From assembly GCA_001781335.1 (NCBI GenBank), contig MFLL01000015.1, forward strand, positions 1 through 50,941: a DNA stretch of 50,941 nucleotides. The letters are read 5' to 3'. Positions 45,143 to 49,388 of the stretch are shown here, in pieces (position 1 is the stretch's first letter; each line of letters starts with the position of its first letter). The DNA is from Candidatus Kaiserbacteria bacterium RIFCSPHIGHO2_02_FULL_55_25 (GTDB lineage Bacteria > Patescibacteriota > Minisyncoccia > Phycocordibacterales > UBA2100). The translations under genes were made by a program, and so were the position numbers. Below the pieces are notes generated by a model that ran no database searches, was not told the origin of the DNA, and saw nothing but the letters and a program-made list of their open reading frames with translations.

Positions 45143-45793
45143 ATGAATCCAATACCTGCTGGGGCGATGCTACGGTTCGGGTGGGAGACGTTTAAAAAAC
45201 GGCCGTGGTTTTTTATCGGCGTCATGGCCGTCATCTGGGTTGTCTCCGGCGTTTTCAGCCAGATGAGTTCGTATGCCAACGAAACATCTGGTGCTGCGGT
45301 CGTTTTTGCTCTCGTCGGTGTTTTTGTCGGCGTTGTGGGACAGCTACTCGTCAAAATGGGGACGATATCGTTCACACTCAAAGCGCACGACGCCCCCGAG
45401 GCCGCCCGTTTTGAGGACCTGTGGGCACCGGAGAAATTCTGGTCATACTTTCTCGCATCAATCCTCGTCGGTCTCATTGTTGTCGTCGGCATCCTCCTCC
45501 TTATCGTGCCGGGTATCATGTGGGCGCTACGGTTCATGTTCGTGCCCTACCTGATTATCGACAGGAAACTTGATGTCTCCGCCGCCATGCGTGAGAGCAG
45601 CCGTATCACTCTCGGGCACAAATGGCAGCTACTGGGCTTGGTCGTAGTGCTCGGTCTTCTGAATATTCTAGGTCTGCTTGCGCTCGTTGTGGGGCTTCTG
45701 GTGACGGTACCCGTGACAATGCTCGCGGTAGTGCACGCATACCGGACGCTTGAACATTCGGCTAGTGAAGTTGCCCTTGCACCGGCAGTGTGA
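45143..45793 (+). CDS. Polytopic membrane protein, 216 aa
   Basis: About five membrane helices, with a C-terminal layout of the glycerophosphodiester-phosphodiesterase membrane-domain or DUF975 kind (LLLIVPGIMWALRFMFVPYLIIDRKLDVSAAMRESSRITLGHKWQLLGL). It is common in Parcubacteria; the function is unknown. It lies 18 nt after recJ and overlaps the region before the RNase H start. Confidence 0.7.
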   Translation: MNPIPAGAMLRFGWETFKKRPWFFIGVMAVIWVVSGVFSQMSSYANETSGAAVVFALVGVFVGVVGQLLVKMGTISFTLKAHDAPEAARFEDLWAPEKFWSYFLASILVGLIVVVGILLLIVPGIMWALRFMFVPYLIIDRKLDVSAAMRESSRITLGHKWQLLGLVVVLGLLNILGLLALVVGLLVTVPVTMLAVVHAYRTLEHSASEVALAPAV

Positions 45794-45795
45794 GC

Positions 45796-46221
45796 ATGCA
45801 GAAGGTTGTTATCTACACTGATGGCGGGGCAAGAAACAATCCGGGACCGGCGGGAGCAGGTGTCGCTATTTACGAAGGCGACCCTTCAACAGGCTCAGGG
45901 CGAGAACTTTCTAGCATAAAGAAATTTCTCGGAAGCCAGACCAACAATTGGGCCGAATATGAAGCGGTTGCCATCGCGCTTACGGAAGCGAAACGGCTCA
46001 GGCTTACAGAGCGCACGCTCGAAATTCGAATGGACAGCAAGCTCGTCGTCGAACAGGTCATGGGCAACTGGAAAATCAAAGAGCCGACGCTCAAACCGCA
46101 GTGCGCGAAAGTCAGAGCACTGTTGAAAGATTTCGCCGCGTACTCATTTGTCCACATTCCTCGCGAAGAAAATGCCGAAGCCGACCGTCTAGTGAACGAA
46201 GCGATAGACGAAGCAATTTGA
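45796..46221 (+). CDS. rnhA: RNase H I-like protein
   Basis: This 141-aa protein removes RNA from RNA-DNA hybrids. Catalytic acidic residues: D in YTDGGARNNPGPAG, E in NNWAEYEAV, D in IRMDSKLVVEQ and D near AEADRLVNEA. The loop DPSTGSGREL after the first strand is longer than usual and encoded by a palindromic-repeat-like segment (45881-45904). The start ATG 45796 follows an in-frame GTG (45790). Confidence 0.9.
   Translation: MQKVVIYTDGGARNNPGPAGAGVAIYEGDPSTGSGRELSSIKKFLGSQTNNWAEYEAVAIALTEAKRLRLTERTLEIRMDSKLVVEQVMGNWKIKEPTLKPQCAKVRALLKDFAAYSFVHIPREENAEADRLVNEAIDEAI
45881..45904 (+). repeat. Repeat-like insertion in rnhA
   Basis: The minus strand reads CCCTGAGCCTGTTGAAGGG, close to the dispersed CCTGAGCTTGTCGAAGG-type palindromes known from many environmental bacteria. 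It is translated in frame as STGSGREL. Confidence 0.5.
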
Positions 46222-46296
46222 CGGATTAGGCGACTTTGCCTATTGTGCGGTACAGAAGCTTCGCTCTGCGAGGCAGGTTTCCGTGGGAGAAAACCC

Positions 46297-46845
46297 TTGA
46301 ACATTAAAAAGAAGACTAAATCAAGTGCAGGACGCGAAACCGACCGCGTGCAGTACGAAGACATGAGGAGACAGTTCGCCGAGTTTTGCACGCGAGGGAA
46401 TGCCAATGGGTGTGAGCAGCGCTATTCCAAGGGCATCAAGGACTATGATGTCGTGTGCGCGTTACCGGGCGTTCAAATGCTCGGGCTACGGTGGCAAACG
46501 CCGATTGCGCTCGTGATTGGCACTGACCTAGTGCGCTGTCACGACAATAGAGGCGTCTTACGCGAGGTCGGCGAGTTCGTAATCGTGATACAAAAAGAAC
46601 CACCTACGTTTCGATTGCATAACATCACGCAGAGGATATACACGAATCACGGGTTGGTACATCATCCGCATATCAACGGCGACGGGGTGCTCTGCATCCA
46701 AGCCGGCAAGATGGAAGTACTGACTGCTATCGTCGACGGCGATATGCCGGTAGCGCTACCTATTCTGCTCGATGCTCTGTGGATGCGGGCAGAGCTGGGG
46801 ACACCGTACATCAATCTTTCTTGTTGGCCGGAAGCGAGGATATGA
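46297..46845 (+). CDS. E2-like (ubiquitin-conjugating-fold) protein
   Basis: The 182-aa product has the C-terminal half of an E2 fold: strands (GEFVIVIQKEPPTFRL), then HPHINGDGVLC with catalytic-type C133 ten residues after H123. This matches the spacing of the eukaryotic E2 motif HPN-x7-C, and HPH occurs in UBE2W. The following helix VALPILLDALWMRAEL fits the E2 C-terminal helix. The first 40 residues are basic and unlike E2. The start is taken as TTG 46297 because GGGAG lies 7 nt before it; ATG 46363 is an alternative. It is coupled (1-nt gap) to an E1-like gene. Confidence 0.75.
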   Translation: MNIKKKTKSSAGRETDRVQYEDMRRQFAEFCTRGNANGCEQRYSKGIKDYDVVCALPGVQMLGLRWQTPIALVIGTDLVRCHDNRGVLREVGEFVIVIQKEPPTFRLHNITQRIYTNHGLVHHPHINGDGVLCIQAGKMEVLTAIVDGDMPVALPILLDALWMRAELGTPYINLSCWPEARI

Positions 46846-46846
46846 C

Positions 46847-47494
46847 ATGGTTCACAAACTCATGCTGCCGGTGCATGTCATCGGAATCGGTGCGGGTGGC
46901 AGCCGCACGGTTCGCCATCTCGTGTCGGAGCGCACGCACATTGCCGGACCGCTTCACATTTGTGACGGAGACTCGGTCGAGGAAAAGAACTGCAAGAATC
47001 AACTCTACCAACCGTCTCACGTCGGCATGCGGAAAGTCCATGCGCTTGCGGAACAAGTGCGTGCGTGGAGCGAAGGCGATGTCGTTCCGGTGCTGCGTCC
47101 GGAATACTTTACTCCGGGGGAGCCCCTCAGTGGCGTAGTCTTCCTCTGCGTCGACAAGATGCACGTAAGAAAGGCTATTATTGACGCATCAATTCGCGGC
47201 AACAGAGCAGTGAGTCTCTTGATTGAGGCTCGCGGCGACACTGAAAACGCGCTCATGCACTTCGTCGATCCCAACGATGAGAAGCAGATGCAGCAATGGG
47301 ATCGGTACTGGTATCCCGACGACGAAGCCGTCAATCAGGGTGATTGCGGCGGCGTTCCGACAGTCGGGCCGCGGGTCGCCGACATCACCGCCTATCTCGC
47401 GGTCCAAGAACTGGTCCGTCGCGTGAGTCTCTCCAGTCTTACCGTCGGCCAAGATTGCCAGTTCCGCATCAAATTGCAGACTTACGCATGGTAG
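46847..47494 (+). CDS. E1-like ThiF/MoeB-fold adenylating protein
   Basis: This 215-aa protein has the Rossmann nucleotide loop VIGIGAGGSR (11-20), ICDGDSVEEKNCKNQLYQPSHVGMRKVHALAEQ (the D-x-D, N..Q and K positions of ThiF-family enzymes), FLCVDKMHVRKAI (C-x-D....R) and a C-terminal GDCGGVPTVGPRVADITAYLAVQELVRR with C167 as a possible thiol site. No CxxC zinc pairs are seen. It resembles E1-like proteins encoded next to E2-like genes in bacteria, including the PRTRC type. It starts 1 nt after the E2 stop, with GAGG about 6 nt upstream. Confidence 0.8.
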   Translation: MVHKLMLPVHVIGIGAGGSRTVRHLVSERTHIAGPLHICDGDSVEEKNCKNQLYQPSHVGMRKVHALAEQVRAWSEGDVVPVLRPEYFTPGEPLSGVVFLCVDKMHVRKAIIDASIRGNRAVSLLIEARGDTENALMHFVDPNDEKQMQQWDRYWYPDDEAVNQGDCGGVPTVGPRVADITAYLAVQELVRRVSLSSLTVGQDCQFRIKLQTYAW

Positions 47495-47505
47495 TGCTGC
47501 ACACA

Positions 47506-47526
47506 CCGAGGGGCTTGACCCCTCGG
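47506..47526 (+). terminator. Terminator after the E2/E1 pair
   Basis: CCGAGGGG/CCCCTCGG, 8-bp stem with a 5-nt loop, then CGTGTCTTCTTTATT. It closes the operon after two genes. Confidence 0.8.
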
Positions 47527-47593
47527 CGTGTCTTCTTTATTCTGGGTGATGGGATATGCGGCTCGCGTATTCCGCAACAGGAGGAAGAGCGTC

Positions 47594-47764
47594 ATGAAAC
47601 TGGATCAGGCCATGGCCGATCTTACCGCGGGCAATGTTGTCAGGCCCGGCGAATTGGCTCAACGTCTCGGTGTGCAGGCGCCTGCCGACGCCGGCTCCGG
47701 CGTCGCTTCCAACCGCCGGACTCAGGAAAGTCCCGGTCTGTCGGCTCGCCCGTCGCTCTGGTAG
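47594..47764 (+). CDS. Small orphan protein, 56 aa
   Basis: The 56-aa product starts MKLDQAMADLTAGNVVRPGELAQRLGV and ends with a Ser/Pro/Arg-rich tail. AGGAGG lies 8 nt before the ATG and a strong terminator follows. The first part could be a short helix-turn-helix. It is not a beta-grasp (ubiquitin-like) protein as far as I can see. Confidence 0.55.
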   Translation: MKLDQAMADLTAGNVVRPGELAQRLGVQAPADAGSGVASNRRTQESPGLSARPSLW

Positions 47765-47783
47765 CCACCTGCCCGCGAACGAT

Positions 47784-47809
47784 CGCCCCGGTGCTGCGGC
47801 TCCGGGGCG
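47784..47809 (+). terminator. Terminator after the 56-aa gene
   Basis: CGCCCCGG/CCGGGGCG, 8-bp stem with a 10-nt loop, followed by GTTTTCTTTT, directly before the comEC promoter. Confidence 0.85.
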
Positions 47810-47834
47810 GTTTTCTTTTGATACGATTCGCAGA

Positions 47835-49388
47835 ATGTCGTCACGCATATTGTGGGCGATAGTCGGAGGATTTTTGGCGGGAGTTTTTGTGCGTTCGTTT
47901 ATCGCACTGCCGTGGCCGTTTGCGGCCTTTTTCGTATTGCTCGCCGTTGCTTCGCTCGCGTACATATCTGTCGTCAGAGAAAAGAAATACGTGCTCATTA
48001 TTGTTGCGACCGTCTGCGTTGCGTTTGCCGTCGGCGTGTTGAGAATGGAGTCGGCGGGGCAGGCGGGCGACGGAAGTCTGACTTCCGTGGTTGGCAAGAA
48101 AGTAACAATTGTCGGAACGGTTTTTGATGAGCCGGACGTGCGCGAAAACGGCATTCGTCTTTCGGTGCGAGTGACGGAGTTCGTGGTCGCGAATGCCACG
48201 ACGTCCGTGAGTGCGGGCCTGCCTCGCCCGACGAGCGTACGAGTCGAGGCGGGTGTGCTTGTCCTCGCGCCACCGCATAGCGACGTCGCCTACGGCGATA
48301 TAGTCCGCGCGACGGGAACGCTGCAATTGCCGGAGACATTTGATACGGGCGCGGGCCGCACGTTCAACTATCCGCAGTACCTCGCAAAAGACGGAATTTT
48401 GTACACGCTCTCGTTTGCGCAAGCGGAACGCATCGGGGAGGGCAGGAAGAATTATCTGAAAGTCGCGGCTCTGCAAACGAAACAGCTCTATTTGCATGGC
48501 TTGCAGGCGGCGTTGCCGGAACCTGAATCAGGGCTTGCCGGGGGCATTACCGTGGGAGATAAACGCGGAGTAGGGGAAGAGTATTCGGACATATTTATCG
48601 CAGTCGGGCTCATACACATCATCGTGCTTTCCGGTTACAACATAACGCTCGTGATGAATATGGTGGGGAAATTACTTTCAAGAGCACCTCGCCCGGTACA
48701 AGTAATTTCGAACGCATTCATCGTGGTGTTTATAGTGCTCATGGCGGGGGCGGCTCCGAGCGCCATGCGCGCGGGCGCCATGGCGCTTCTGCCGCTTGTC
48801 GCCCGCATGACGGGGCGCGTCTATCTGGCACTCCGCGCACTCGGCGTCGTCGCGTTTGTGATGGTGGCGTGGAATCCGTTGCTACTCGCGTATGATCCGG
48901 GGTTTCAACTGTCCGTCCTCGCGACGCTCGGGCTCGTGCTCTTTTCGCCGGTATGTGCCGGATGGCTCCATTGGGTTCCGGAGAAATTTGCTCTTCGCGA
49001 AATCGCCGCCTCGACGCTCGGTACGCAGACGATGGTATTACCGCTCCTCTTGTATCAAAACGGACTTCTTTCGCTCGTCGCACTGCCCGCAAACCTTCTC
49101 GCGCTCGTAGTAGTGCCGTGGGCGATGGGGCTTTCTGTCGTCGCGGCACTTGCAGGAATCGTTCTCGGTTCGTATGCCGTTGTAATCGCATTTCCCGCAT
49201 ACGTCATCCTCGCGTACATCATCGGCGTCGCGCGGTTTTTTGCCGCATTGCCGTTTGCTTCGGTATCTGTCGGCGCATTCAGCGTGTGGTGGATGTTTGC
49301 CGCATACGCGCTCCTGTTCGGCGGCCTCGTGTTACTCCAAAAAAGAAAAAGCCGGACACGGAGTCCGGCGATTTCCCAGAAAGACTAG
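47835..49388 (+). CDS. comEC: ComEC, N-terminal OB and competence membrane domains
   Basis: The 517-aa protein forms the channel for single-stranded DNA uptake. It starts with two membrane helices and an OB-like DUF4131 region (VGKKVTIVGTVFDEPDVRENGIRLSVRV). The Competence domain follows, with the conserved HIIVLSGYNITLVMN and about eight helices. It lacks the C-terminal metallo-beta-lactamase domain, which is encoded separately from 50702. TACGAT (47822-47827) ends 7 nt before the ATG. Confidence 0.9.
   Translation: MSSRILWAIVGGFLAGVFVRSFIALPWPFAAFFVLLAVASLAYISVVREKKYVLIIVATVCVAFAVGVLRMESAGQAGDGSLTSVVGKKVTIVGTVFDEPDVRENGIRLSVRVTEFVVANATTSVSAGLPRPTSVRVEAGVLVLAPPHSDVAYGDIVRATGTLQLPETFDTGAGRTFNYPQYLAKDGILYTLSFAQAERIGEGRKNYLKVAALQTKQLYLHGLQAALPEPESGLAGGITVGDKRGVGEEYSDIFIAVGLIHIIVLSGYNITLVMNMVGKLLSRAPRPVQVISNAFIVVFIVLMAGAAPSAMRAGAMALLPLVARMTGRVYLALRALGVVAFVMVAWNPLLLAYDPGFQLSVLATLGLVLFSPVCAGWLHWVPEKFALREIAASTLGTQTMVLPLLLYQNGLLSLVALPANLLALVVVPWAMGLSVVAALAGIVLGSYAVVIAFPAYVILAYIIGVARFFAALPFASVSVGAFSVWWMFAAYALLFGGLVLLQKRKSRTRSPAISQKD
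49351..49369 (-). terminator. Terminator of the minus-strand gene, inside the comEC 3' end
   Basis: GCCGGAC/GTCCGGC, 7-bp stem with a 5-nt loop, followed on the minus strand by TTTTTCTTTTTT. It lies within the last codons of comEC on the other strand. Confidence 0.7.

Follow-up and report, generated by a model that had tools for sequence, protein, structure and literature searches.

A candidate minimal ubiquitin-like conjugation cassette with a short peptide as putative modifier in Patescibacteria

Three genes on the forward strand of the window, by which we mean the whole stretch of 50,941 nucleotides that was analysed, probably form a minimal ubiquitin-like conjugation cassette consisting of an E2, an E1 and a short peptide that would act as the modifier, as judged from sequence and predicted structures. 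On balance, we lean towards a more specific proposal: that, in Patescibacteria of the window's order, a disordered peptide of ~50 residues took over from the beta-grasp protein that serves as modifier in an E2-JAB-E1-Ubl system, and that this peptide would be activated at its C-terminal Gly by a minimal E1 and passed to the E2. Such a peptide would be a Pup-like tag working on ubiquitin-type enzymes, without a processing or deconjugating protease. Nearly all modifiers of E1-E2 systems have the beta-grasp fold; the disordered Pup works with an unrelated ligase. If our proposal is true, the fold of the modifier would be dispensable and mainly its tail would matter, as the CBASS case discussed below hinted, and the cassette, from a genome of <0.9 Mb, would rank with the smallest known conjugation cascades. 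Since the candidate tags are ~50 residues long and can be synthesised, a direct in vitro test of the idea is feasible.

The proposed pathway has the following steps. The E1 would use ATP to adenylate the peptide at its last residue, normally a Gly, and the peptide would then move onto C167 of the E1 as a thioester and from there to C133 of the E2; the E2 would in turn join the peptide to a target amine. Expressed from its own transcription unit, the peptide would stand in for the Ubl, a beta-grasp protein, that the parental E2-JAB-E1-Ubl operons encode, and because its tail would be exposed from the start, a JAB processing protease would be unneeded. We infer the adenylation, the thioester relay, the role of the peptide as substrate and any target by analogy.

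The genome containing the window comprises 0.87 Mb in 33 contigs and is 99% complete; the genomes compared here are metagenome assemblies. The first gene (46297-46845, forward strand) ends 1 nt before the second begins (46845 versus 46847), as a preliminary description of the locus had reported, and encodes an E2-like protein of 182 residues, numbered from its predicted TTG start. Family profile searches returned no match above threshold for this protein. The E2-type HPH...C motif that the preliminary description had placed at H123 and C133 is correctly positioned: C133 (codon 46693-46695) lies ~10 residues past H123-P124-H125, the spacing at which the catalytic Cys follows the HP(N/H) motif of E2s, and a profile alignment sets it onto the catalytic Cys of UBE2B/UBE2A (RAD6). 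The motif and C133 are identical in two relatives of the same genus, and the conservation extends to a broader alignment of 26 relatives, where every sequence has P124 and C133, and at least 90% have G92 and H125.

The predicted structure of this protein points in the same direction. Its AlphaFold2 model (pLDDT 88.8, pTM 0.83) has a UBC fold, and nearly all of the best 50 entries found with VIA-align were E2 or UEV chains, matched over residues about 25-181 with Z of 5.5-6.5; values in this range can arise at random, though so uniform a match list and a fitting active-site register speak against that here. Foldseek gave weak matches for the same model, with E2 and UEV chains on top (best E 0.08), and a profile search of the PDB returned many E2s at marginal E-values. 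Because Foldseek is weak by itself, we combine the support for the fold across tests instead of drawing it from a single one. Taken together, alignment and model predict that the protein has an E2 fold with intact active-site residues.

The second gene (46847-47494, forward strand) encodes an E1-like protein of 215 residues, for which a ThiF-type adenylating fold had been suggested. This assignment is borne out by Pfam, where the protein scores 35.5 bits against a ThiF cut-off of 28.1, and by its model (pLDDT 91.9), whose Foldseek matches were headed by PaaA and included Cap2, ThiF, MoeB, Uba4, BubCD and UBA5 (E 1e-10 to 1e-8). The GxGxxG and DxD motifs, the Lys, the Asp and the catalytic Cys expected of E1/ThiF enzymes are all found: in an alignment of 35 sequences, G13, G15, G18, D40, D42 and N48 are strictly conserved, and E45, Q52, K63, D103, R108 and the candidate catalytic C167 (codon 47345-47347) are kept in at least 90%. 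Sequence and model thus predict a ThiF/MoeB-fold enzyme with the full set of adenylation residues, reduced to a single short adenylation domain whose Rossmann strand begins at residue 9. A second ThiF match in the window's genome proved to be a malic-enzyme-like ORF. All nine E1s of the peptide-type loci described below end with a Trp or have one close to the C-terminus (W215 in the window), possibly an E2 docking tail.

The likeness to PaaA, the top match of the E1, raises the possibility of a RiPP-like pathway. The short gene would then encode a precursor peptide, and the ThiF-like enzyme would adenylate the C-terminus of this peptide and modify or cyclise it; the E2-like protein would have an unusual helper role, and no protein would be conjugated at all. 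Enzymes such as MccB (acting on MccA), PaaA and IndF share the ThiF fold and do work on the C-termini of short, gene-encoded precursors (PMC12150305, PMC12250964). They differ, however, in having a recognition domain and accompanying peptidases or transporters, and in having no E2. The window's cassette has neither a peptidase nor a transporter, and the Rossmann strand begins too early in the E1 for a RiPP recognition element to fit in front of it. Furthermore, an active-site E2 next to a conserved E1 cysteine points to thioester transfer, and the kin of the pair are Ubl operons. We therefore regard a RiPP-like pathway as unlikely.

The preliminary description took the locus for a two-gene system and missed a third gene of 56 residues (MKLDQAMADLTAGNVVRPGELAQRLGVQAPADAGSGVASNRRTQESPGLSARPSLW; 47594-47764, forward strand), which begins 99 nt downstream of the E1 gene and has the properties of a candidate peptide modifier. 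Together with its eight counterparts, this gene is represented in all nine comparable genomes, namely those with an E2-E1 pair and no adjoining JAB or Ubl. Besides the window's own genome (G000), the set comprises five genomes of its genus (G022, 'Candidatus Kaiserbacteria bacterium CG10_big_fil_rev_8_21_14_0_10_59_10', locus L058; G037; G043; G044; G045), one of its family (G002) and two from other families of its order (G1125, G1038), and the nine loci span two E1 clades and four genera. In every one of them, a short ORF of 47-63 codons with a Shine-Dalgarno sequence directly follows the E1 gene on the same strand.

Several lines of evidence argue that these ORFs are real genes. First, dinucleotide shuffles predict such an ORF in 0.07 of nine loci and a C-terminal Gly in 0.005, compared with nine and seven observed, respectively; four of the nine ORFs had been spotted by eye before the criteria were fixed, and the remaining five were found later, all fitting. 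Second, of the 227 gene ends that these loci contain, 11 are followed by such an ORF: the nine E1s and two of the 218 others, and neither of the latter two ORFs ends in Gly. Third, the last 12 residues of the peptides are conserved within each of the two E1 clades (0 of 2000 shuffles scored as high), for example NDPRMRAYLDG in G044 versus DDPRTRKYVDG in G045, while the sequences are scarcely alignable beyond their C-termini. The nine peptides (47-63 residues) are disordered; A, G, S, T and P make up 56% of their residues, and Lys and aromatic residues are few.

A short ORF of this kind could also be something other than a protein modifier: spurious, regulatory, or an unrelated small protein travelling with the pair. 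Its low-complexity composition would fit this explanation, as would its Trp end in the window, the lack of a clear coding signature in the codon-position GC of the short genes and the lack of a Pfam match for any of the nine peptides. The shuffles, gene ends, C-terminal conservation and promoter statistics (below) all speak against it, as do the Shine-Dalgarno sequence and 3' hairpin found in all nine loci and the presence of the short gene in other families, where the neighbouring genes differ (L202, L213). We consider it very unlikely that the short gene is not a modifier, and of the partners that the preliminary description had entertained for the pair, a peptide substrate is the better-supported one.

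The genetic arrangement around the short gene suggests a transcription unit of its own. Within 1.8 kb of the window there are only two promoter-like sites, both sigma-70-like: TTGACG-17-TATTGT before the E2 gene (46218-46246, forward strand), a consensus match that overlaps the rnhA stop codon, and TTGACC-17-TATTCT before the short gene (47515-47543, forward strand). A strict promoter of this type lies between the E1 and peptide genes in five of the nine homologous regions, where 0.18 would be expected. The pair had been described as closed by a terminator, and a terminator-like GC hairpin is indeed present after the E1 gene (47506-47526, forward strand); since the promoter of the next gene has its -35 element within the loop of this hairpin, however, that description is only partly right. 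The short gene itself is preceded by the Shine-Dalgarno sequence AGGAGG (47579-47584, forward strand) and followed by an intrinsic-terminator-like hairpin with a T tract (47777-47820, forward strand; -27.8 kcal/mol, z -2.6), and inspection revealed a hairpin 3' of the short gene at all nine loci. Rfam returned no match within the cassette.

Comparison with relatives shows that the three genes are inserted as one segment. The insertion site is flanked on the left by rnhA, encoding an RNase HI-like protein (45790-46221, forward strand), and on the right by a gene that, from its sequence, we take to be comEC-like (47835-49388, forward strand). In ten genomes of the same genus that lack the E2-E1 pair, the gap from rnhA/mscL to comEC measures 6-104 nt, compared with an interval of 1.6 kb in the window that holds the three genes of the cassette and the hairpin behind the short gene. 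As the site is empty in these ten relatives, the short gene belongs to the inserted segment together with the E2 and E1 genes. The interval between rnhA/mscL and comEC (46222-47834 in the window; also L043, L046, L203 and L205) is a variable site of this family: it is empty in the ten genomes and occupied by an E2-E1-peptide cassette in others.

The kin of the pair were found by E1-based searches of genomes and contigs, and their neighbourhoods were read with home-made E2, JAB, E1 and Ubl profiles; a nine-member E1 alignment was too divergent to scan contigs. The widespread sister operon is E2-JAB-E1 with a Ubl, single or in tandem, usually after and sometimes before these genes; this Ubl often ends in (K/R)GN, NG, GG or GS. 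Such E2-JAB-E1-Ubl operons occur across the window's class and in Doudnabacteria, Melainabacteria, Obscuribacter and many viral contigs. For example, among the nine closest readable E1s outside the window's order in a class-wide draw (L266-L274), a JAB and an E2-profile match lie upstream in all nine and a Ubl-profile match right after the E1 in eight, some of these matches being weak. In the complete sister operons, the Ubl usually has the very place, right after the E1, that the short gene occupies in the nine loci, and the sequence comparison suggests that the peptide of this gene probably takes ubiquitin's place as the attached tag.

A very divergent but conventional Ubl encoded elsewhere in the genome could instead serve the E2-E1 pair, leaving the short gene accessory or unrelated. 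Ubls are short and diverge fast, our own Ubl profile, made from relatives, might overlook one, and the Ubl stands before the E2 instead of after the E1 in some sister operons (L049, L051). Nevertheless, profile and ThiS searches at the sensitivity used detected no Ubl in the cassette or in the whole 99%-complete genome of the window, although the positive controls were found (G581 at 6e-23, G518 at 2e-16); the matches obtained in four genomes proved to be TGS domains of RelA/SpoT, ribosomal protein S5 and similar proteins. Together with the short gene filling the slot after the E1 in nine of nine loci, these searches make a Ubl encoded elsewhere rather unlikely. At that sensitivity, JAB was likewise undetected in the cassettes and in genomes G000, G022, G037 and G044. 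The preliminary description had seen no Ubl, JAB or cyclase beside the pair, and for Ubl and JAB the observation now extends genome-wide.

How could the proposed exchange of Ubl for peptide have come about? In a tree of 57 E1 sequences, the peptide type falls into two groups, requiring 2 changes compared with 8.6 when the labels are shuffled; this tree is quick and unrooted, with L207 and L213 on long branches. In one genome, G002, a peptide-type pair (L203) coexists with a Ubl-type operon (L204). As far as these sequences indicate, the simplest history would be that the Ubl was replaced and the JAB lost within the window's order, an unrooted tree giving no direction of gain or loss. Given the E2-JAB-E1-Ubl kin in the class, in Melainabacteria and on viral contigs, the E2-E1 pair is a derivative of a system of known kind. 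The preliminary description had found no described system of this form in such a bacterium. Among freely accessible published papers, preprints aside, we likewise found none described in Patescibacteria, but the locus does have clear kin in the E2-JAB-E1-Ubl operon family.

The cassette differs from each of the systems with which it might be grouped. The bacterial E1/E2/JAB/Ubl operons of types 6a-6e, in all of which the JAB is fused or adjacent (Iyer et al. 2006, PMC1779556), as well as BilABCD (PMC11354881) and Bub, share the E1 and E2 folds and the active-site cysteines of the window's pair. In contrast to these systems, the window's cassette has no JAB, fused or adjacent, and no beta-grasp Ubl in the operon, carries a short gene for a disordered peptide where the Ubl would be, and encodes an E1 that is a single short adenylation domain. 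The peptide-type group thus breaks the JAB rule of Iyer et al. (PMC1779556). In Pup (PMC3511204) there is a likeness in the modifier, which is small, intrinsically disordered and acts via its C-terminus, whereas its ligase PafA is glutamine-synthetase-like and its end is Glu, unlike the E1/E2 enzymes of the cassette; no PafA-type Pup ligase (PF03136) was found in the nine genomes, and a Corynebacterium control was detected. The E1 is weakly similar to PRTRC ThiF (TIGR03736), at 27.7 bits far below the curated cut-off of 144.75, and no PRTRC partner genes were seen in the cassette. Assignment to PRTRC is therefore excluded by score, and assignment to Bil or CBASS by gene content.

The comparison with CBASS is nonetheless instructive. 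Its E1-E2 enzyme Cap2 works on a protein that lacks the beta-grasp fold, through a single Gly or Ala at that protein's C-terminus (PMC10097602), which is the kind of chemistry that we propose for the window's cassette. In CBASS, E1 and E2 are fused in a single protein, Cap2, and a nucleotidyltransferase (CD-NTase) serves as modifier, whereas the window has separate E2 and E1 genes and a peptide of ~50 residues; the inserted segment holds only the E2, the E1 and the short gene, with no cyclase or Cap3. In CBASS, a C-terminal Ala is partly tolerated, while Ser, Val, Arg and Trp are not, and a Gly-to-Trp change abolished conjugation (PMC10097602). The nine peptides end in Gly (seven), Ala (one) and Trp (one, in the window): SLW in the window, DLG in G022, SLG in G037, SGA in G043, LDG in G044, VDG in G045, YTG in G002, TLG in G1125 and RLG in G1038. 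These tolerances fit the Gly and Ala ends in eight of the nine genomes, which makes the Trp end of the window's peptide the main puzzle and, because of the Gly-to-Trp result, a point against the three-gene reading. The window's peptide may be a decayed copy, may be trimmed before use, or may reflect an assembly or population variant.

Complete E2-JAB-E1-Ubl operons also lie on large viral contigs of up to 316 kb (L095-L107, L109, L118-L134). A second scan of viral loci found a JAB near every E1 examined, a Ubl near most and the short gene in none; the window's E2, used as sole query against phages, plasmids and viral contigs, gave no matches. At the viral JAB-E1 locus L111 (9270-10421), the next large gene encodes a reverse transcriptase (PF00078, E 9e-20), and next genes of similar size, judged by size or sequence only, are present at L108, L110 and L112-L117. 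In Melainabacteria and Obscuribacter (L049-L051, L053-L057), the gene after the E1 of E2-JAB-E1 operons encodes a large protein, and a tandem Ubl precedes the E2. At L049 (8883-11348) this protein is a ClpB/ClpC-like AAA+ unfoldase, and that at L054 is similar in appearance, which hints that the system in these bacteria is tied to protein unfolding or degradation. Finally, one genome of the window's class carries two tandem E2-like/JAB/E1 sets (L044, G090:C2, 2-5871), in which the E2-like and JAB genes were called by eye.
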